Part shown: piece after piece, positions 3,535 through 24,981 of the stretch
Layout: every line of letters starts with the position of its first letter
Numbering within the stretch: the first letter of the stretch is position 1
Virus record (IMG/VR): IMGVR_UViG_3300032116_000987
Span: 1-29,333 of that record
Reading direction: 5' to 3' (one strand)
Origin: a virus
DNA length: 29,333 nt
The notes under the pieces: generated by a model
The model's database searches: none
What the model was told of the DNA's origin: nothing
What the model saw: only the letters and a program-made list of their open reading frames with translations
Translations under genes and position numbers: made by a program

Positions 3535-4446
3535 ATGAAAGGAGTTATAACTATATTTGCTTTACCTCAAGAATTAGAGGATTTAGCTTTAACATTATAT
3601 AATTTAAAAAGAAATTCCATTTATCTTGATACTACAGTTAAATACAAAGTAGAAATTACTATGTGTTTATCTGATAAATTAACTAATTGGGATGAATCTA
3701 AATTACCTAAAGATTATATTAAAGAAAGAACTGAAGAATTAGTCACTAAATTTTTAGATTGGTGTGAGTGGACTTTACTTTGGGGTGATGAAAATATATT
3801 AGGGTGTGTATCTCAAAGAAGATATAGTTTAAATAATAATTTAGATGCTGACTTTTTTATATGGTTAGATTGTGATTTTATATTTAAGGACACTACCTTA
3901 AGTTATATGACTCAAGCTTATCAAACTGTAAAAGAAGAAAATATTGATTTATTTATACTTACTCCTCAATTTGTAAAACAGTGGGATAACACTTGGGATG
4001 TAATTGTTAATAAATCATTTTTAAATTATCCATTAGATTATGAATTAGTAGCAGATGTTTATAAAGATACATTACCTGATATAGGAGATGTAGAAGTAAA
4101 ATCAATACCTACATTTAAATTTGCTGGGGGGTGGTTCACTTTAATATCTAAAGATCTTCTAATTAAAACAGGGGTACCTGAGTCATTAGGACATTATGGT
4201 TTAGAAGATACATATATTATTGAGTGTTGTAATATATTAAGACAAAAAGGTAAGAGTGTGTTTCAATTTATATTAGAAAATCATATAATAGGAGAAAGTT
4301 ATACTCATCGTCCTAATGAAACTATTAAAAAATACATATCAAGTATAAGTAAAAAAGATGAGTTCACTAGAATAGCTCATTTAAATTTCCCAATTGAAAT
4401 AAATAAATTTTATGAAAGAAGTAACAGTAGTATTAACAGCCTGTAA
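3535..4446 (+). CDS. GT-A type glycosyltransferase
   Basis: 303 residues. FFIWLDCDFIFKD (107-119) is a clear DxD motif (D112, D114) at the end of a hydrophobic strand. AGGWFTLISKDLL and GHYGLEDTYIIE follow, matching the acceptor-loop and ED motif of GT2-like enzymes. A preceding RRYSLNNNLDADFF segment has the N-x-G/D-like approach helix. The last 35 nt overlap the next gene in another frame; the overlapped residues (EINKFYERSNSSINSL) are low-complexity and probably not essential. Confidence 0.65.
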   Translation: MKGVITIFALPQELEDLALTLYNLKRNSIYLDTTVKYKVEITMCLSDKLTNWDESKLPKDYIKERTEELVTKFLDWCEWTLLWGDENILGCVSQRRYSLNNNLDADFFIWLDCDFIFKDTTLSYMTQAYQTVKEENIDLFILTPQFVKQWDNTWDVIVNKSFLNYPLDYELVADVYKDTLPDIGDVEVKSIPTFKFAGGWFTLISKDLLIKTGVPESLGHYGLEDTYIIECCNILRQKGKSVFQFILENHIIGESYTHRPNETIKKYISSISKKDEFTRIAHLNFPIEINKFYERSNSSINSL

Positions 4447-5101
4447 TAGAGCTGATTTGTTAGAAAAAACTTTAGATAGTTTTTTTGAAATGAATACATA
4501 TCCTTTAAAACGTTTTATTATTATAGATGATGGAATGAATTTTGGATGTAATGATTTTGTTAAAGAAAAATATGAATTTCCTATAGAACTCATTTATAAT
4601 GACCCTAAATTATATCAAATTAAATCTATAGATTATGCTTATTCATTAGTAGATACAGAATATATCTTTCATATGGAAGAAGATTGGTTATTTTTGAAAA
4701 AAGGATTTATTGAAGACTCAATGAAAGTTTTAGAAGCCGATGATAATATTTTACAAGTATGGCTTAGAGGTATAGATGACACTACTGCTCCTCACCCTTG
4801 GAAACCAGATGTGTATGAAGTAGATGGATTAAAATGTGTATTGTTAGAGTACACAGGTATATGGAATGGTTTTAGTCTAAACCCAGGATTAAAAAGACTT
4901 AGTGATTGGAAGAAATTACCTAATGGTTATAATGGATGTGAAAGGATTACTCCTGAAGAACAAAGCGGTGGTGTTACTTTAGAATGTGACATATCAGTAG
5001 AGTATGCTAAACAAGGAATGATTGCTATGAGATTCTTAGAAACATATATTACTCATATAGGTTGGGATAGACATATAATAGATGGAATAAATGGAAAATA
5101 A
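4412..5101 (+). CDS. Glycosyltransferase family 2-like protein
   Basis: 229 residues. KEVTVVLTACNRADLLEKTL is a textbook GT2 first strand and helix. RFIIIDDGMNFG is strand two with the usual DDG, and EYIFHMEEDWLF (83-94) holds an EED where DxD sits. The ATG at 4412 lies 35 nt inside the upstream gene; it is kept because the GT2 first strand begins right at it. The C-terminus overlaps the next start by 11 nt, so translation of three consecutive transferases is coupled. Confidence 0.7.
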   Translation: MKEVTVVLTACNRADLLEKTLDSFFEMNTYPLKRFIIIDDGMNFGCNDFVKEKYEFPIELIYNDPKLYQIKSIDYAYSLVDTEYIFHMEEDWLFLKKGFIEDSMKVLEADDNILQVWLRGIDDTTAPHPWKPDVYEVDGLKCVLLEYTGIWNGFSLNPGLKRLSDWKKLPNGYNGCERITPEEQSGGVTLECDISVEYAKQGMIAMRFLETYITHIGWDRHIIDGINGK

Positions 5102-6266
5102 TATACCCAAATTTACATTTTGTATTACTTCAAAGAATAATTTGAGATATCTTAAACATGCTGTTTTTTATATAAAAGAAAACTCATCTAGAGAACATGA
5201 TATATTAGTATTCATAGATGCTGATAGTGACGGAACTGAGAACTGGTGTAAAGATAACAACATAAAATATATCAAAAATCAATCAGATAAATTATTTGGT
5301 ATAGGTAATGCTTATAATTTATTAGTCAAAGAATCTCAAACTGATTTTAATGTTATATATCATGCTGATATGATAATGGGAAAGGGATTTGATGTGGCGT
5401 TATACTCTAAATGGAAACCTAAAACAGTAGTATCCGCTACCAGAATAGAACCACCACTGCATCCTTCAGATCCATCTAAAATTGTTTTAGATTTTGGATT
5501 ATGGCCTGAGTTAGATATAGTTGATGGTTTTAAATTAAAGGAGTTTAATGAATTTGTAGATAAAAATAAAAAAGATATTGTAACAAATGGTATATTTGCT
5601 CCTTGGTTAATACATAAAGATGATTTCAATGATGTTAATGGTCATGATCCTATTATGAAATCACACAGTGAGGATAGAGACTTATTTAATAGATTTTTAT
5701 TAAATGGATATGATTTAATCCAAAGTTGGGAAGCGTTAGTTTATCATTTAACATGCAGGGGAGGACAATTTGAACATGCCTCTAAAACTAAAGATTTAAA
5801 TTTTAAATCAAATGATTGGAATATATTAGCCCATAACCAGACTAGAGAATTTATTCGTAAGTGGGGTACGCCTCCAAAATACAATGAATATCAATTTCCA
5901 ATTGTATCATCAAAATATGATATTGGTTTTATAGTTAAAAATTGTAACCAACAATTATTAGAAGTTTTAGAACCATGGTGTTCAACTATTTATGTAGATT
6001 GTGATTATAAACAATATATCGAAAAAGAACAATTAAACACATCATTTAATCTTTATAATCATATTAGACCTTATGATAATGAAAAACAAAATGAAATATT
6101 AGTATCATTTGATATTACTCAATTAAACCAACAAAATTTCCAAATAATCCAACAACTACCAGACATAATTAAAGACAATGGTGAGATAGGTTCATTTGAA
6201 TTAGATATATTTAAAATAGATATCATCCAAATGAATGAATATCAAAACACCCTTATTAAAATATAG
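5091..6266 (+). CDS. Large glycosyltransferase, GT2-like with extra C-terminal domain
   Basis: 391 residues. Residues 1-250 form a GT2-like core: FTFCITSKNNLRYLKHAV, LVFIDADSDGTENWC, a helix with GIGNAYNLL, VIYHADMIMGKGF (HAD, 91-93) and later HSEDRDLFNRFLLNGYD, the ED motif. Residues 270-391 start a new unit (YDIGFIVKNCNQQLLEVLEPW) with strand-turn pattern that I do not recognise; it resembles the C-terminal unit of other viral transferases only loosely. This is the last gene of the glyco-operon; its end is overlapped by the 5' arm of a terminator. Confidence 0.65.
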   Translation: MENNIPKFTFCITSKNNLRYLKHAVFYIKENSSREHDILVFIDADSDGTENWCKDNNIKYIKNQSDKLFGIGNAYNLLVKESQTDFNVIYHADMIMGKGFDVALYSKWKPKTVVSATRIEPPLHPSDPSKIVLDFGLWPELDIVDGFKLKEFNEFVDKNKKDIVTNGIFAPWLIHKDDFNDVNGHDPIMKSHSEDRDLFNRFLLNGYDLIQSWEALVYHLTCRGGQFEHASKTKDLNFKSNDWNILAHNQTREFIRKWGTPPKYNEYQFPIVSSKYDIGFIVKNCNQQLLEVLEPWCSTIYVDCDYKQYIEKEQLNTSFNLYNHIRPYDNEKQNEILVSFDITQLNQQNFQIIQQLPDIIKDNGEIGSFELDIFKIDIIQMNEYQNTLIKI

Positions 6267-6290
6267 TTTGGTGTTTATTTATTTTTTTAT
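6245..6290 (+). terminator. Terminator of glyco-operon, overlapping a promoter
   Basis: AAACACC (6245-6251) pairs with GGTGTTT (6270-6276) around an 18-nt loop and is followed by a T-rich run to 6290. The 5' arm is inside the last codons of the glycosyltransferase gene, and the 3' arm begins on the G of the promoter -33 TTTG. The long loop makes it weaker than the others in this window. Confidence 0.45.
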
Positions 6291-7209: not shown

Positions 7210-7850
7210 TGGCTAAAGCAAAACCATTAACAAAAGAAATGATCCTTAGCGCAATGGATAAAACAAAATCTGTTCGCGCTGCGGCTCGTTATTTAAATTG
7301 TTCTTATGTACATCTTAAACAATATATGAAGTTGTACAAGGATGAGAATGGAGTATCTTTATTTGACTCACATAAAAACCAGTCAGGTAAAGGTATTCCT
7401 AAATTTTTATCAGCGTCTCATTACAATAAAAAAGACCCAGCTATACTTGATATTATAGAAGGTAGAGTAGATGCCTCTCATTTCAACCCACAGAAGTTAA
7501 AGTATAGAATGATAACAGAGGGTTATTTGAAGGAAGAATGCTCTAATTGTGGATTCCATGAACGACGAGTTTCTGATTATAAAGTCCCACTTATCATGCA
7601 CTTCAAGGATGGCAACAAACAGCATTATAATTTAGGTAATGTTGAAATGCTTTGTTATAACTGTTATTACTTAATGGTAGGGGATGTATTTGATAATAAA
7701 CAACTTGAGGGATTAGAAGATCATAAACCAACTTATGGTAGTCAAGTAGATTGGGAATTAGATGAGTACACTAAACAAAGATTAATAGAATTAGGATTAG
7801 ACAAACCTGAACCAACAGATGATGGTTCAGAGTTTATTAGTAGACTTTAG
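7209..7850 (+). CDS. HTH plus degenerate HNH-type zinc protein
   Basis: 213 residues. Residues 20-45 (SVRAAARYLNCSYVHLKQYM) read as a helix-turn-helix. Residues 108-155 carry an HNH-like arrangement: EECSNCGF (C111, C114), LIMHFKDGNKQHYNLGNVEML (H131, D134, N136, N144) and CYNCYYL (C149, C152). In active HNH nucleases the pattern is HHxDGN...N...LCxNCH; here the last His is Tyr (CYY), so cleavage may be lost and the fold kept for DNA binding. It follows the zinc-finger gene with a 1-nt overlap. A homing endonuclease is less likely given its co-directional position inside an operon. Confidence 0.6.
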   Translation: MAKAKPLTKEMILSAMDKTKSVRAAARYLNCSYVHLKQYMKLYKDENGVSLFDSHKNQSGKGIPKFLSASHYNKKDPAILDIIEGRVDASHFNPQKLKYRMITEGYLKEECSNCGFHERRVSDYKVPLIMHFKDGNKQHYNLGNVEMLCYNCYYLMVGDVFDNKQLEGLEDHKPTYGSQVDWELDEYTKQRLIELGLDKPEPTDDGSEFISRL

Positions 7851-7869
7851 ATAATATTTATCAGTGAGT

Positions 7870-8025
7870 ATGAAAAAGCAAAAGCATAAAGAGATTGAAA
7901 CTGATTATGAGACTATTAAGTCTAAACATCTTGAAAAGTTAGCAGATCAGATTCTTAAAAATGATGAGAAGATGAATCAACTCAAAGGAAAAAATATTAA
8001 TCCGGATTTCTTAAATTTATTTTAA
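7870..8025 (+). CDS. Small charged helical protein, 51 aa
   Basis: ATG 7870 to TAA 8023-8025, overlooked by length cut-offs. Protein begins MKKQKHKEIETDYETIKSKH and ends NINPDFLNLF; almost entirely charged helix, suitable for a coiled coil or polymerase-binding tail. It lies 18 nt after an ATATTTATCA motif (see the candidate second promoter class). The 8027 gene starts 1 nt after its stop, which supports it being translated. Confidence 0.55.
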   Translation: MKKQKHKEIETDYETIKSKHLEKLADQILKNDEKMNQLKGKNINPDFLNLF

Positions 8026-8026
8026 T

Positions 8027-8386
8027 ATGGCTATTGAATTTACATTAAATAACAGTGACGAGTTCCAAGCGATGGTTGATAGGAGAGATTTTTCAATAGC
8101 ACAAGCAGTTGTAGAAACAATATTAGCTAACTTAAATACTCGTAAACAGCATATTCATGTATTAACAATTAATTGTTTAGATGAAGGTGAAGCTTATGAC
8201 ATTACATTAGAAAGAAAACATTTTGTAGACACATTACAGGAAAATCTGAAATACTATGTAGAAAATGAAAAGTATGAAGATTGTACTAAAATAGTAGAAG
8301 CAATTAACACCCTAAAAGAAAAACAAACACACACGAAAAATGGCAAAAACAAAACAAACATCAGCAACAAAGATGTACTCTCCTAA
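8027..8386 (+). CDS. Hypothetical protein, 119 aa
   Basis: Begins MAIEFTLNNSDEFQAMVD and contains a helix-rich middle (FVDTLQENLKYYVENEKYED). No family recognised. Its last 15 or so residues (NGKNKTNISNKDVLS) are encoded by the same DNA as the start of the next gene in another frame, and are low-complexity; the native end may once have been earlier. Soluble, no signal sequence. Confidence 0.6.
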   Translation: MAIEFTLNNSDEFQAMVDRRDFSIAQAVVETILANLNTRKQHIHVLTINCLDEGEAYDITLERKHFVDTLQENLKYYVENEKYEDCTKIVEAINTLKEKQTHTKNGKNKTNISNKDVLS

Positions 8387-8486
8387 ACCGAGAAGAAAGA
8401 GACCAGGAGTACATAGTAAGAAAAAAACATCAAAAATGAAAACAAGTAAGCATTATAAAAAAGCTTACCGCGGACAAGGAAAATAA
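8340..8486 (+). CDS. Very basic 48-aa protein
   Basis: ATG 8340 to TAA 8484-8486, overlapping the preceding gene by 47 nt in a different frame. The protein has YSPKPRRKRPGVHSKKKTSK near its middle and ends KKAYRGQGK; about 40 percent of residues are Lys or Arg. Small basic proteins with a PKPR..RPGVHSK-like core recur in phage genomes as unnamed ORFs. Nucleic-acid binding is inferred from charge alone. Confidence 0.6.
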   Translation: MAKTKQTSATKMYSPKPRRKRPGVHSKKKTSKMKTSKHYKKAYRGQGK

Positions 8487-8502
8487 ATTAAATAAAATAG
8501 TT

Positions 8503-8649
8503 ATGAGTAAAAACACTAATCTACAACGTTATGAATGTTTAAAGTCTTATATTCAAGTTTTGGAAGGTAAACGTAAGAAAAAAGAAATTACCAAGTTACG
8601 AAACGAAAAGACATATACTACCAAAAACGCTTATAAACGTGAGTATTAA
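8503..8649 (+). CDS. Small basic hypothetical protein, 48 aa
   Basis: ATG 8503 (context AATAGTTATGAG, typical for this window) to TAA 8647-8649. Protein MSKNTNLQRYECLKSYIQVL, then a KRKKKEITKLRNEK helix and NAYKREY. Charged, one cysteine, no known domain. Its end overlaps the next gene by 11 nt. Confidence 0.5.
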   Translation: MSKNTNLQRYECLKSYIQVLEGKRKKKEITKLRNEKTYTTKNAYKREY

Positions 8650-8797: not shown

Positions 8798-8829
8798 TTT
8801 GGCCTTCGGGCCATTCTTTATTATATTTA
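8798..8829 (+). promoter_or_regulatory. Promoter P2 (TTTG-N20-TATATTTA)
   Basis: TTTG 8798-8801, TATATTTA 8822-8829, 20-nt spacer; the next ATG is at 8846 with AAGGTTATGG context. Confidence 0.82.
8800..8821 (+). terminator. cUUCGg hairpin terminator inside promoter P2
   Basis: TGGCC (8800-8804), TTCG loop (8805-8808), GGCCA (8809-8813), then TTCTTTAT. A five-pair stem closed by the very stable C(UUCG)G tetraloop with a T-rich tail. It fills the spacer of promoter P2. Confidence 0.7.
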
Positions 8830-19377: not shown

Positions 19378-20472
19378 ATGAAATTAAGTACATTATATAA
19401 ACGCGCCGTTAACGGTAAAGTAAATGAATGGACAGTTGAAATTGAGAACAACTGTTTCAGAACAATATCAGGTTATACAGATGGAGTTAAGACAACTTCT
19501 GAATGGACTTGTTGCTCAGGTAAAAATATAGGTAAGAAAAACGAAACCACACCCGAACAACAAGCATTAGCTGAAGCTCAAGCAATGTGGACTAAAAAAT
19601 TAGAATTAGGTAGTTATGAATCAATAAAAGATATTGATACACCTAAATTCTTCAACCCAATGTTAGCTCATAAGTTTGAAGATTATAAAGATAAAATTAC
19701 ATACCCAGTTTATAGTCAACCTAAATTAGATGGTATTAGATGTATTGTTAGAGCAGATGGTATGTGGAGCAGAAATGGTAAGAAAATTATCTCAGCACCT
19801 CATATTTTTGAATCATTAAAACCATTATTTGAATCTAATCCTGATTTAATATTTGATGGTGAGTTATATGCTGATAAGTTTGCAAATGACTTTAACGCTA
19901 TTTGTTCATTGGTTAAGAAAACTAAACCAACAAGTAATGATTTAGCTAAAAGTAAAGAATCAATTCAATATCACATTTATGATTTGCCTAGTTGTAGTGG
20001 TACATTTACTAAACGTTATAGAACGTTATCTGATTTAAATTTACCTGAGTGTTGTGTTTGTGTTAAAACTGATCAAATTGATAATATAAATGATTTGTTA
20101 GCTTATTATGAAGACTACACTATGGAAGGTTATGAGGGTCAAATGATTCGTTTGGATAAAGAATATGAATCAAAACGTTCTAAATCACTTCTTAAACATA
20201 AATCGTTTATTGATGAAGAATATATTATATTAGATGTAGTTGAAGGTGAAGGTAATAAAACTGGAATGGTAGGTTCATTTATATTTAAGAGTAAGACAGG
20301 ACATATATTTAATTCATCACCTAAATTTAATTGGGAGGAATGTAAGGCTATGTGGAACAATAAAAATGAATTAATTGGTAAATCAGCTACAGTTAAGTAC
20401 TTTAACTTAACACCAGATGGTGTTCCAAGATTTCCATATGTAATTAAAATTGATAGAGAGAGTTACGAATGA
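19378..20472 (+). CDS. ATP-dependent DNA ligase with N-terminal WGR-like domain
   Basis: 364 residues. Catalytic domain: adenylation motif QPKLDGIR with Lys116, SRNGKKI (131-137, motif Ia), FDGELY (159-164, motif III), EGYEGQMIR (250-258, motif IV), LLKHKSF (271-277, motif V) and an OB-fold end. It joins nicked DNA during phage replication and repair. Residues 1-80 (WTVEIENNCFRTISGYTDGV, GKNIGKKNETTPEQQALAEA) resemble a WGR-type nucleic-acid-binding unit, seen fused to some phage ligases. ATG 19378 is the only plausible start; there is no other Met before it reaches the N-terminal unit. Coupled to the next gene by ATGA. Confidence 0.88.
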   Translation: MKLSTLYKRAVNGKVNEWTVEIENNCFRTISGYTDGVKTTSEWTCCSGKNIGKKNETTPEQQALAEAQAMWTKKLELGSYESIKDIDTPKFFNPMLAHKFEDYKDKITYPVYSQPKLDGIRCIVRADGMWSRNGKKIISAPHIFESLKPLFESNPDLIFDGELYADKFANDFNAICSLVKKTKPTSNDLAKSKESIQYHIYDLPSCSGTFTKRYRTLSDLNLPECCVCVKTDQIDNINDLLAYYEDYTMEGYEGQMIRLDKEYESKRSKSLLKHKSFIDEEYIILDVVEGEGNKTGMVGSFIFKSKTGHIFNSSPKFNWEECKAMWNNKNELIGKSATVKYFNLTPDGVPRFPYVIKIDRESYE

Positions 20473-21154: not shown

Positions 21155-22222
21155 ATGAGCAAATTAAATACACTTAAAAAACAACATCCCGATTTAGATA
21201 TTAGTTTTATTGATGCGTTGTCAATGTGTTATAAGACTAAGTATGTTGAAATGATTATTAATATCACTAAACATAGATGGGAAAAAGAAGAAGATACTAG
21301 AGAGGGAAGCATATATGAATTCACAGATATGGGATTCTCTGAGGAAAAAGCTAAAGATATACTTAATGGTAAAACATGGGTTGCTCAAAAATTCATGTAT
21401 GCTAATTTAAGTGAAACTCCATATCGTCATTTTAGAACAATAAATAAATTTGTTGATCTTAATGAGCGTGGTTTGATTGTTAATAAGGATGTGACATCAT
21501 ATAAAACAACAGAGGAAATGGAAGCACAAATTGCTTTAGCTGAACTTAAATCTGTAAATAAAGAGTTAGAGAAATTTATTTTAAAACTTCATGAGGATGA
21601 TGAATGGTTAATTATAAAACCACTTACATATGAATCATCTAAAAAATATGGAGCTGGAACTAGATGGTGTACAGCTGCTGAAAGTGACCAATACCAATTT
21701 TATGGATACACAGGTCGAGGTAATCTCATGTATATAATGAATAAACATACAGGTTACAAAGTAGCAGCGTTTAATAATTTAAGTAAAGATCATTCTCGTG
21801 AGTTATCATTTTGGGCAGCTGATGATACTCGAATTGACTCAATTGAAATAGAAGCCCCATCTGAAATAATGGACATTATTATTACTGATTTGAGGAATTG
21901 TAAACAAAGTAATTATAATCTAGCATCAGATGAGATTAAAAAGATTTATGATGAGGGAATGAATGGAGATAAAAAGGAAATATCTAGCAGTCTTAGAACA
22001 TTAGGTGAGTTAATGGGAAGAATAAATACAACACAACCTGCAATGCGATATGAAATATCAGAGACTGGTGAATATATAACTGAAGAACAATTAAATAATA
22101 TGTGGGGAGTCACAACTACAAGTTTAACTACTACAGATGCATCCCCAATCCAACAAGCACCAGAAGGTACAGAAATAATTAACCATTGGACAAACCTAGA
22201 GCAAAATGACCAACAAGGATAA
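21155..22222 (+). CDS. Hypothetical protein with GTRWCTA motif, 355 aa
   Basis: 355 residues; first half helical (LNTLKKQHPDLDISFIDAL, TWVAQKFMYANLSETPYRHF), then ESSKKYGAGTRWCTAAESDQ (161-180) with the tryptophan-cysteine signature and a beta segment GNLMYIMNKHTGYKVAAFN. The G(T/K)RWCT..(N)xFxxY..(G)xLY pattern is found in phage and bacterial proteins without a known role, loosely like the C-V-x-Y turn of PcfJ-type domains. The C-terminal third is low complexity. No membrane segment. Confidence 0.55.
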   Translation: MSKLNTLKKQHPDLDISFIDALSMCYKTKYVEMIINITKHRWEKEEDTREGSIYEFTDMGFSEEKAKDILNGKTWVAQKFMYANLSETPYRHFRTINKFVDLNERGLIVNKDVTSYKTTEEMEAQIALAELKSVNKELEKFILKLHEDDEWLIIKPLTYESSKKYGAGTRWCTAAESDQYQFYGYTGRGNLMYIMNKHTGYKVAAFNNLSKDHSRELSFWAADDTRIDSIEIEAPSEIMDIIITDLRNCKQSNYNLASDEIKKIYDEGMNGDKKEISSSLRTLGELMGRINTTQPAMRYEISETGEYITEEQLNNMWGVTTTSLTTTDASPIQQAPEGTEIINHWTNLEQNDQQG

Positions 22223-22496: not shown

Positions 22497-22710
22497 AACA
22501 CCTATTCAAAAAATTAAAACAGCTTATTATATTATGAGTGAATCACAGTTTCATCATTGGTTAGCTACTAATTTAAAGGAATTAGAACAAGATGAAATGA
22601 AAGTAGTACATGAATGTATTAAATGTGGTAGTGAGTTGGTTCAAAATGAAAAAGGTAGGTGGGTAAATAAACATGATCCTGACACCTTTTATGAAAATAA
22701 TTATAAATAA
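22489..22710 (+). CDS. Small zinc-ribbon-like protein
   Basis: ATG 22489 overlaps the upstream stop; ATG 22534, in frame and preceded by an A/T-rich leader, is an alternative that would give 58 residues. The reliable part has ECIKCGSELVQNEKGRW, a single CxxC, plus QFHHWLATNLKELEQDEMKV. The first 15 residues of the longer form could be just leader. Ends 2 nt before the terminator/promoter. Confidence 0.48.
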   Translation: MTKTPIQKIKTAYYIMSESQFHHWLATNLKELEQDEMKVVHECIKCGSELVQNEKGRWVNKHDPDTFYENNYK

Positions 22711-22712
22711 AG

Positions 22713-22744
22713 TTTGGCCTTCGGGCCATTTTTTATTATATTTA
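22713..22744 (+). promoter_or_regulatory. Promoter P7 (TTTG-N20-TATATTTA)
   Basis: TTTG 22713-22716, TATATTTA 22737-22744, 20-nt spacer. Serves the RNA-repair cassette. Confidence 0.8.
22715..22736 (+). terminator. cUUCGg hairpin terminator inside promoter P7
   Basis: TGGCC (22715-22719), TTCG loop, GGCCA (22724-22728), then six T (22729-22734). Confidence 0.72.
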
Positions 22745-22762
22745 AGTATTATGAAAACAGTT

Positions 22763-23368
22763 ATGATAAACAATTTCGACCATATAAGAAATTTATTAAA
22801 GTTTGAGAAAGATTATTTCTACTTTATTCAGATTATTCAACGTAAGAAAGAAAATCCTGAATTAGGTTCTAATAACAGAGTCATTCGTTCATATAATATC
22901 TCTAGTTTAGAGAAATTTGATAAGAATAAAGATGAAATTATCACATTGTGTGAAACATTTAATGCTAGAGCTTATATTCATTTAAATAGAAGAAAATGGA
23001 GTAAAATTGCTTTAGAGTGTTTGAGACATAACGCTGAACTGATTGCAAATGAGCAATATGATGGTATCAAATCTAGTTTTGAAACTATTATTGGACGTAA
23101 CAATTGTGAACCAAGAGAAAGTAAAACATGGATCATTGATATTGATATGAATGATTTGGAGGTTGTAAATAAAATTGAACGTATCATTAATAGCATAGAA
23201 CCTATAGATAGAACTGTAACCAAGCTAATGTATACTATTCCTACTAAGAATGGATTTCATATGATCACTAGACCATTCAATAGAGCTGAATTTGCTAAGT
23301 ACATGCAACTACAAGGTGATGTGCCTGATATTCATACTGATAATCCAACAATACTATACACAATATGA
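22763..23368 (+). CDS. Primase-like (AEP superfamily) protein of the RNA-repair cassette
   Basis: 201 residues from ATG 22763, chosen over ATG 22751 because 22763 has the favoured AGTTATG context and an 18-nt leader. The C-terminal part has WIIDIDMND (D126, D128) and TKNGFHMITRPF (H166), the hhDhD and sxH order of archaeo-eukaryotic primase active sites, then DNPTILYTI. The N-terminal half (IRNLLKFEKDYFYFIQIIQR, NARAYIHLNRRKWSKIALEC) recurs in unnamed phage proteins. A third acidic residue of the AEP triad is less clear. It is coupled to the kinase by ATGA. Confidence 0.55.
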   Translation: MINNFDHIRNLLKFEKDYFYFIQIIQRKKENPELGSNNRVIRSYNISSLEKFDKNKDEIITLCETFNARAYIHLNRRKWSKIALECLRHNAELIANEQYDGIKSSFETIIGRNNCEPRESKTWIIDIDMNDLEVVNKIERIINSIEPIDRTVTKLMYTIPTKNGFHMITRPFNRAEFAKYMQLQGDVPDIHTDNPTILYTI

Positions 23369-23766
23369 AAACATTAATATTATTAAGAGGATTACCTGGT
23401 GCAGGTAAGTCAACATTAGCAAAGATGTTAGTTGGGGATAAAGATTACCGACACAAAGAGGCTGATATGTTTTTCGTCGACGGTGAGGGTAATTACAAGT
23501 TTAAACCATCAAAAATTAAAGATGCGCATGCTTGGTGTCAAGAGGAGGTGGATTTTCTAATGAGATATGAGCACTCACCAGTGGTAGTGTCAAATACATT
23601 CACACAAGAATGGGAAATGAATACCTACTATGAGTTAGCTAAGAAGTATGGTTACCAAGTACATTCTGTTATTGTAGAGAATAGACATAACGGAGAAAAT
23701 ATGCATGGATGTCCGGTTGATAAGATTGAACAGATGGAGGATCGTTTTGAAATAAAACTTTATTAA
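23365..23766 (+). CDS. P-loop kinase (polynucleotide-kinase-like)
   Basis: 133 residues. LILLRGLPGAGKSTLAKML holds a Walker A motif (G9-T17). A D-rich substrate loop (HKEADMFFVDGEG), VVVSNTFTQEWEMNTYYELA and later VIVENRHNGENMHGCPVDKI have the order of N4BP2/polynucleotide-kinase-like P-loop proteins. Immediately before an RNA ligase, a 5'-end-kinase role in RNA repair is the natural inference. No separate 3'-phosphatase domain is visible; the two metallophosphoesterases at 12259-13631 could supply one but lie elsewhere. Confidence 0.75.
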   Translation: MKTLILLRGLPGAGKSTLAKMLVGDKDYRHKEADMFFVDGEGNYKFKPSKIKDAHAWCQEEVDFLMRYEHSPVVVSNTFTQEWEMNTYYELAKKYGYQVHSVIVENRHNGENMHGCPVDKIEQMEDRFEIKLY

Positions 23767-23767
23767 G

Positions 23768-24931
23768 ATGGAAAATAATAACTCAGTGTGCTACGTAGCA
23801 CGCATAAACGAAATTAAAGAAATACCAGGAGCAGATAATATCGAACAAGGTGTTATCGGAGGATGGAATTGTATTATCAAGAAAGGAGAATACAAAGTAG
23901 ATGATTTAGTTGTAGTAGCAACTACAGACGCAGTCATTCCTCAAGAACTATCAGATGCAATGAACGTAACTAATTACTTGCGTAAAGGTCAACGTGTGCG
24001 TACTGTTAAGTTAAGAGGAGTGTATTCTGAATGTTTGATTATACCTTTAAGATATGCTCGTCAATCTGCTAATTACACTAAATTGGAGTGGAATGAAGGT
24101 AAGGACATGATGGAATTGTTAGGTATCTTCAAATATGAACCACCTGCAGTTCAAGTACAATTGTCTTCAGGTCGTAAGATCAAGTACCACCAAAACCCAA
24201 ACTTCACAGTGTACCATAAGTTTCCTAACTTGAAGAACGTAGCTGGAATGTTTACTGAAGAGAACTATGTTCAAATTACTCGTAAGTTACATGGTACAAA
24301 TGCTCGTTATGGTATTGTTAAGAAACGTAAGTTATCATTTTGGGATAAAGTTAAGAAATTCTTACGATTAGCTGATGAGTGGATTGAGTATGAATATGTT
24401 TATGGTTCACATAACGTTGAGAAAGGTTCTGATACACAAGGTTTCTATTCAACTGACGTTTGGAGAGAAGTAGCTGATAAGTATCAAATCAAAGAGAAGT
24501 TATGGGCGTTTGTTAAGAAGCATACTCCAACTGAAGTTGGAAGTGGAGTAGTAGTGTATGGTGAGATATATGGGCCTGGTATTCAAAAGAACTATGACTA
24601 TGGATTGAAAGAGTTAGAGTTTGCTGGGTTTGATATTGTATGGAATGGTAAGTATTTGTCTACTGAAGGAACTTATCTTACAATGATTGGTAAACCTACT
24701 AACTTTATTGGTGGTGTTGATTTACCTCACGTACCTGTTTTATACAATGGGAATTGGTCTCAAGAAATTCAAGACCAGTTTACATTCAACAACTTCATTG
24801 ATGGAACTAAAGTACCACATGAAGGTATTGTAATCAAGCATGTGAGTGGAGAAAGAGAGAAAGTAGCTAAAGTAATCAATCCTGATTATTTGATCTACGG
24901 AGAGAAGCATGATGTAGGAGATTCGCACTAA
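23768..24931 (+). CDS. RNA ligase, Rnl5/DraRnl-like
   Basis: 387 residues. An N-terminal OB-like domain (1-115: VARINEIKEIPGADNIEQGV, KKGEYKVDDLVVVATTDAVI, RTVKLRGVYSECLIIPL) precedes a ligase core with the nucleophile in ITRKLHGTN (Lys173), VYGEIYG (E266), EGIVIKH (352-358) and AKVINPDYL (Lys368). This architecture is that of Deinococcus RNA ligase and relatives. It seals RNA ends, for example after host nuclease cuts tRNA in anti-phage defence. Codons look slightly less AT-rich than in neighbours. Next is a terminator. Confidence 0.85.
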   Translation: MENNNSVCYVARINEIKEIPGADNIEQGVIGGWNCIIKKGEYKVDDLVVVATTDAVIPQELSDAMNVTNYLRKGQRVRTVKLRGVYSECLIIPLRYARQSANYTKLEWNEGKDMMELLGIFKYEPPAVQVQLSSGRKIKYHQNPNFTVYHKFPNLKNVAGMFTEENYVQITRKLHGTNARYGIVKKRKLSFWDKVKKFLRLADEWIEYEYVYGSHNVEKGSDTQGFYSTDVWREVADKYQIKEKLWAFVKKHTPTEVGSGVVVYGEIYGPGIQKNYDYGLKELEFAGFDIVWNGKYLSTEGTYLTMIGKPTNFIGGVDLPHVPVLYNGNWSQEIQDQFTFNNFIDGTKVPHEGIVIKHVSGEREKVAKVINPDYLIYGEKHDVGDSH

Positions 24932-24933
24932 AG

Positions 24934-24965
24934 TTTGGCCTTCGGGCCTTACTTTATTATATTTA
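24934..24965 (+). promoter_or_regulatory. Promoter P8 (TTTG-N20-TATATTTA)
   Basis: TTTG 24934-24937, TATATTTA 24958-24965, 20-nt spacer. Next ATG 24982 after AAAGGTTATGA. Confidence 0.8.
24937..24956 (+). terminator. UUCG hairpin inside promoter P8
   Basis: GGCC (24937-24940), TTCG, GGCC (24945-24948), then TTACTTT. The flanking A of other copies is T here, shortening the stem to four pairs, and the T tail is broken. Confidence 0.6.
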
Positions 24966-24981
24966 AGTATAAATAAAGGTT

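Follow-up and report, generated by a model that had tools for sequence, protein, structure and literature searches.

What does an AEP-like protein, with a primase-polymerase fold, do in a phage transcription unit whose other two genes encode a kinase and an RNA ligase? The question arose from a 29,333-nt stretch of viral DNA (IMG/VR record IMGVR_UViG_3300032116_000987, positions 1 to 29,333), the whole of which is referred to here as the window. The reading that we favor, with a probability of about 0.6, is that the three enzymes form an RNA end-repair module expressed as one transcription unit, in which the AEP-like protein adds nucleotides to 3′ ends before sealing.

Organization of the three-gene cassette

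A sequence-only reading of the window had placed three open reading frames on one strand at nt 22763-24931, driven by one promoter and with ATGA coupling between the first two genes, and the features listed in Table 1 agree with it on all of these points. The AEP gene likely starts at nt 22763, since its homologues open with M[IV][ND]N; the ORF extends open upstream to nt 22673, and an in-frame ATG at nt 22751 is a possible alternative start. The AEP and kinase genes overlap as ATGA at nt 23365-23368 and the kinase/ligase junction is TAA-G-ATG, with a gap of 1 nt, so that the three genes are tightly coupled. Their dN/dS values of 0.08-0.16, reflecting purifying selection, indicate that they are real and constrained genes.

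Table 1. Features of the cassette and its flanks in the window
Feature	Position (nt)	Strand	Basis
Hairpin terminator of preceding unit (AAGTTTGGCCTTCGGGCC)	22710-22727	+	Exact copy at 24931; folding z -3.2
Promoter-like TTTATTATATTTAAGTAT ahead of cassette	22732-22749	+	Exact copy at 24953
AEP-like (primase-polymerase fold) protein, 201 aa	22763..23368	+	Motifs, AlphaFold model, PHROG 14949
P-loop kinase, 133 aa, AAA_33 / N4BP2-like	23365..23766	+	PF13671, Walker A GLPGAGKST
RNA ligase, Rnl5-like, 387 aa	23768..24931	+	PF21189 + PF09414, invariant motifs
Hairpin terminator closing cassette	24931-24948	+	Copy of 22710 element
Promoter of next unit, TTTATTATATTTAAGTAT	24953-24970	+	Exact copy of 22732 element

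Two identical composite elements, at nt 22710 and 24931, enclose exactly the AEP, kinase and ligase genes, by which a single promoter is well supported. In each element, a GGCC-TTCG-GGCC hairpin and its T run precede TTATTATATTTAAGTAT, which lies directly 5′ of a start codon. Across the window, the hairpin occurred in six copies with up to 3 mismatches (0.02 expected) and TTTATTATATTTAAGTAT gave 11 matches at the same threshold (1.6 expected). Repeated units of a hairpin terminator followed by a promoter-like sequence thus seem to split the window into transcription units. Looser copies with both halves, one of them weaker at some sites, were located at nt 8818, 12241, 15704 and 19362, and related elements at nt 6287 and 14766. 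Upstream of the cassette, nt 21155-22222 encode a protein of 355 aa belonging to PHROG 17056, which has no function assigned there. No tRNA genes were found in the window.

The first protein has a predicted AEP fold

The protein encoded by the first gene is a member of PHROG 14949, a family listed as "unknown function", and no name for it was obtained from Pfam or NCBIfam. Three motifs, hhhDhD/E, sxH and hD/E, define the AEP superfamily according to PMC5862659. In an alignment of 45 non-identical homologues, D126 and D128 of motif I (WIIDID) and both residues of motif II (G164-x-H166) were present in 45/45 sequences, while position 189 of motif III was D or E in 42/45 (D189 in the window protein) and A, N or V in the other three.

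The AlphaFold model of the protein had a pLDDT of 96. After residue-level realignment (VIA-align), RepB’ primase ranked first (Z 8.2, 126 residues, model residues 3-201), followed by the full-length matches S-2L PrimPol (Z 7.1), PriS (6.3) and LigD PolDom (6.2); nearly all non-AEP structures covered just short pieces or sub-domains of the model. A separate model of a homologue of about 45% identity again placed RepB’ first (Z 7.6), and the same homologue matched a PHROG "DNA primase" profile over motifs I-II (E 5e-4). No primase was found in sequence searches of the PDB with the protein alone or with the 45-row profile, and a Foldseek search of the PDB with the model yielded nothing at E ≤ 0.001. 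The top Foldseek rows, Lrp/AsnC regulators and eIF4E, were put down to chance given their TM values of 0.2-0.3 and an rmsd of roughly 10 or higher; a DNA_primase_S match of one family member (E 0.046) was not used as evidence. The cassette's first protein is predicted to have an AEP fold, with the Z of 8.2 being modest. The sequence-only reading had called it AEP-like and had set beforehand that a predicted structure lacking this fold would refute it; both models and the near-invariant motifs sustain the assignment.

Members of the family are encoded by phages of Bacteroidota, crAss-like phages, Lak megaphages and Campylobacter phages. No fusion to a ligase or a kinase was seen among the AEP ORFs of the collected loci, as judged by length, and the longer versions in loci L117 and L118 contained no Pfam domain.

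The kinase and the RNA ligase

The second protein matches PF13671 (AAA_33; E 6e-12), its Walker A motif is invariant among homologues, and it is predicted from sequence to be a 5′-OH polynucleotide kinase, presumably of an N4BP2-like type by our reading of the conserved pattern. It had been likened to T4 Pnkp, which holds for the P-loop kinase but not for the C-terminal HAD 3′-phosphatase domain: the protein consists of the kinase domain only and, being short and N4BP2-like, is not a T4 Pnkp. No 3′-phosphatase is encoded in the three-gene unit. In contrast, the kinase partners in four other loci (L084, L013, L036 and L104) contain an HAD_PNKP domain and are true kinase-HAD phosphatases. A separate observation concerns PHROG 8238, a family of 737 positions annotated as "RNA ligase", in which positions 1-109 match the window kinase and 191-248 a phosphoesterase of the neighboring type; this pattern suggests that PHROG 8238 is a kinase-phosphatase-ligase fusion.

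The third protein contains an N-terminal OB fold (PF21189, E 2e-16) and a nucleotidyltransferase domain (PF09414, E 5e-17), both above cut-off, and its best PDB matches were the Naegleria RNA ligase chains 5cot and 6vt3. The adenylation motifs K173LHG (KxxG), E266, E352-G and K368 were invariant in 12 homologues. These domains and motifs fit the earlier designation as an Rnl5-type ligase, but the score against TIGR02306, the DRB0094/Rnl5 equivalog, was 105 bits and thus below the cut-off of 151.15, so the protein is called Rnl5-like here rather than an Rnl5 equivalog. In locus L035 (nt 3572-6004), as well as in L037, the RNA-ligase gene next to the AEP gene looks broken by a split intein; in L035 an intein-like CLSEETELITEDG.. 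start terminates the N half, ..NNFYANGVLVHN|C opens the C half, and a free ORF of 322 aa lies between the halves.

RNA-repair genes adjoin AEP genes in diverse phages

The gene company of the family was surveyed in 80 loci from viral contigs, mostly fragments, and 8 loci from GenBank phages, all with an AEP homologue and together forming 56 groups at 70% identity. Within 6 kb of the AEP gene, RNA ligase was the commonest neighbor (19/56 groups), followed by a calcineurin-like phosphoesterase (14 groups) and two kinase clusters (7 groups each); rarer neighbors were a T4-Rnl1-like ligase (4), a CCA-type nucleotidyltransferase (4) and CYTH proteins (3). A kinase, a ligase or both were located within 3.5 kb in 21/56 groups, with both in 11, and neither was found within this distance in the other 35. 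Against a null in which AEP genes were placed at random in the whole records (56 non-redundant; p-values optimistic owing to related records), RNA ligase lay within 3 kb in 14 of the 28 ligase-bearing records (null 2.8, p ≤ 5e-5) and 10 of the 26 kinase-bearing records had their kinase gene within 1 kb (null 1.1, p ≤ 5e-5). The DNA-ligase control showed no excess within 1 kb (1/16 versus null 0.7) and a mild regional enrichment at 3-5 kb (p about 0.04). The co-occurrence of the AEP gene with kinase and ligase genes in relatives, distant ones included, on which the sequence-only reading depended, thus exceeded both the null and the control.

The arrangements varied. Gene orders included Rnl-AEP-Pnkp with 4-nt overlaps at both joints (L084), Rnl-AEP-kinase-phosphoesterase with 4-nt overlaps (L063), Rnl5-AEP-Rnl1 (L035), phosphoesterase-kinase-AEP-Rnl1 (L075) and CCA-transferase-AEP (L087 and L119); in phage phi17:2 (L009) the AEP gene, gp033, is followed by a CCA-type transferase gene, a CYTH gene lies near the AEP gene in L081, and a Pnkp and two phosphoesterases are encoded nearby in L104. 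Among PDB proteins, the Pnkp of L084 matched T4 PNK and Pnkp1 of the Pnkp1-Rnl-Hen1 RNA-repair complex. The varied order and partner types indicate that the association arose repeatedly, and on the AEP tree, in which many branches are weak, the presence of kinase or ligase required at least 15 changes. An independent collection of genome assemblies yielded 16 further AEP loci, and ligase, Pnkp, phosphoesterase or CCA-transferase genes were again present in several of them (L104, L114, L116, L117 and L119).

The mild enrichment of DNA ligase at 3-5 kb is what would be expected if these genes clustered only because phages park accessory genes together in a hot spot. This explanation is very unlikely, since no DNA-ligase excess was seen at close range, the AEP gene overlaps a ligase or kinase gene by 4 nt in several lineages, and the unit in the window contains exactly the AEP, kinase and ligase genes.

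The same control bears on whether the three enzymes mend DNA ends or nicks rather than RNA, with fill-in as in LigD, phosphorylation and sealing. LigD PolDom is indeed among the structural matches of the AEP model, and both DNA and RNA are substrates of T4-type kinases. However, the cassette ligase falls in RNA-ligase families, the window has its own, separate DNA ligase gene (nt 19378-20472), linkage of DNA ligase to AEP was at null level within 1 kb, and the CCA-transferase, Rnl1 and CYTH neighbors point to RNA, all of which makes a DNA-repair role improbable.

A replicative role of the AEP-like protein is likewise unlikely in general. That it is the phage's replication DNA primase, lying beside RNA-repair genes by happenstance, would fit the predicted fold and the use of AEP-type primases by many phages (PMC5862659), and in more than half of the 56 records, many of them fragments, no second primase was recognized. 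Yet at least 21/56 records encode a separate DnaG-like or Prim-Pol primase. Because the DnaG zinc domain was detected in just 10 records and Prim-Pol in just 2, a phage DnaG profile was built; 18 records were counted as DnaG-like by this profile, one more by the zinc domain and 2 by Prim-Pol (PF09250). In phi17:2 the Prim-Pol gene, gp016, is close to the DNA polymerase gene, whereas the AEP gene adjoins the CCA-type transferase gene, and in four other records (G028, G030, G033 and G039) a separate primase coexists with an AEP gene inside an RNA-repair cluster. Moreover, the AEP-like protein carries no helicase, zinc or PriCT domain, and its neighbors are RNA-repair rather than replication genes. 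We therefore give the replicative explanation little credence.

If the AEP-like protein were an RNA nucleotidyltransferase serving a different purpose, for example tailing, 5′-end marking or upkeep of the 3′-CCA of phage tRNAs, with the kinase and ligase involved only indirectly, this would be in keeping with the CCA-type transferases adjoining AEP in L009, L087 and L119 and with the CYTH gene in L081. The commonest AEP partners are, however, ligases, phosphoesterases and kinases and not transferases, and we consider such a role quite improbable.

Comparison with known repair systems

Like T4 Pnkp/Rnl1, the cassette pairs a phage kinase with an ATP-dependent RNA ligase, but its kinase is short and without phosphatase and its ligase is Rnl5-like instead of Rnl1. 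We know of no polymerase partner in T4 tRNA repair as described. Bacterial LigD, composed of a PolDom AEP, a ligase and a phosphoesterase, resembles the cassette in coupling AEP fill-in to end healing and ligation; LigD is, however, a fusion for DNA break repair, whereas the cassette encodes separate proteins including a member of an RNA-ligase family.

In jumbo phages, the nucleotidyltransferases of RNA repair are RlaP, the CCA-adding enzyme and Thg1 (PMC7824862), and AEP is not named in that paper's RNA-repair section. Gene neighborhoods of Thg1, PNK and ligase have also been described (PMC2904730). As with the cassette protein, these nucleotidyltransferases are encoded with an RNA ligase and a PNK and are proposed to restore nucleotides prior to sealing; they are of Pol-beta or Thg1 type, whereas the cassette protein is set apart by its AEP motifs and AEP-like model.

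A close precedent is the proposal by Burroughs and Aravind, cited in PMC5862659, that proteins with a predicted role in RNA repair, mostly from kinetoplastids, contain AEP domains. Both cases tie a divergent AEP to predicted RNA repair, but the AEPs of that proposal are domains of multidomain proteins, while the phage protein of 200 aa stands alone beside kinase and ligase genes. The earlier statement that the combination was not a known phage system is in line with the searchable literature, in which no description of a primase-fold enzyme in phage RNA repair was found, although the original 2016 paper of Burroughs and Aravind may mention the family. AEP in predicted RNA repair is known, mainly from kinetoplastids, and the stand-alone phage family appears to be new.

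Proposed mechanism of RNA end repair

According to PMC7824862, the syntax of phage RNA repair comprises a ligase, enzymes that modify the ends and a nucleotidyltransferase to replace the bases that were lost, and the AEP loci display the same recurrent linkage of ligase, end modifier and nucleotidyltransferase classes. Taken together with the AEP domains of predicted RNA repair, this leads us to read the phage protein as the AEP-type counterpart of the nucleotidyltransferase. The RNAs mended by the module would most likely be, for example, tRNAs cut by the host in self-defence. What follows on catalysis by the AEP-like protein, on its RNA substrate, on how the steps are ordered and on the anti-defence role is inferred. 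Host RNases, such as anticodon nucleases, would break tRNA or other RNA to leave a 5′-OH and a 3′ end that may be short of one or more nucleotides. The kinase would then phosphorylate the 5′-OH, the AEP-like enzyme would add the missing ribonucleotide(s) at the 3′-OH, templated by the folded RNA or untemplated, and the Rnl5-like ligase would adenylate the 5′-phosphate and then seal. A 3′ phosphate would be cleared in relatives by a calcineurin-like or HAD phosphatase; in the window phage, its removal would have to come from outside the three-gene unit.

RloC, reported in 2008, excises the wobble nucleotide of tRNA, a lesion proposed to defy repair by Pnkp/Rnl, and its reversal by phages was left open in that paper (PMC2610378). 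An attack of this type may be what makes an AEP necessary, and a polymerase encoded together with a kinase and a ligase is a concrete candidate for such reversal. That PHROG 14949, as a widespread stand-alone phage AEP family, is a gap-filling RNA polymerase restoring nucleotides excised by RloC-like anticodon nucleases is a tentative and somewhat doubtful proposal. If true, tRNA breaks that are otherwise irreparable would become sealable, PHROG 14949 would gain a function, and primase-fold enzymes would extend to phage RNA repair. The cassette could also provide a set of tools for RNA end repair.

Other genes and members of the AEP family

Outside Bacteroidota phages, an AEP family member is encoded by Campylobacter phage CP21 (CP21_052, nt 30990-31730), with no annotated RNA-repair gene adjoining. 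In phi17:2, gp031 (L009, nt 7358-8509), annotated as "polymerase" and located directly downstream of the CCA-type transferase gene, possesses WGR and PARP catalytic domains. By sequence resemblance, NAMPT-like and PRPP-synthetase-like genes are located no more than 5 kb from the AEP gene in three loci (L040, L068 and L088) and may form a NAD-salvage pair.
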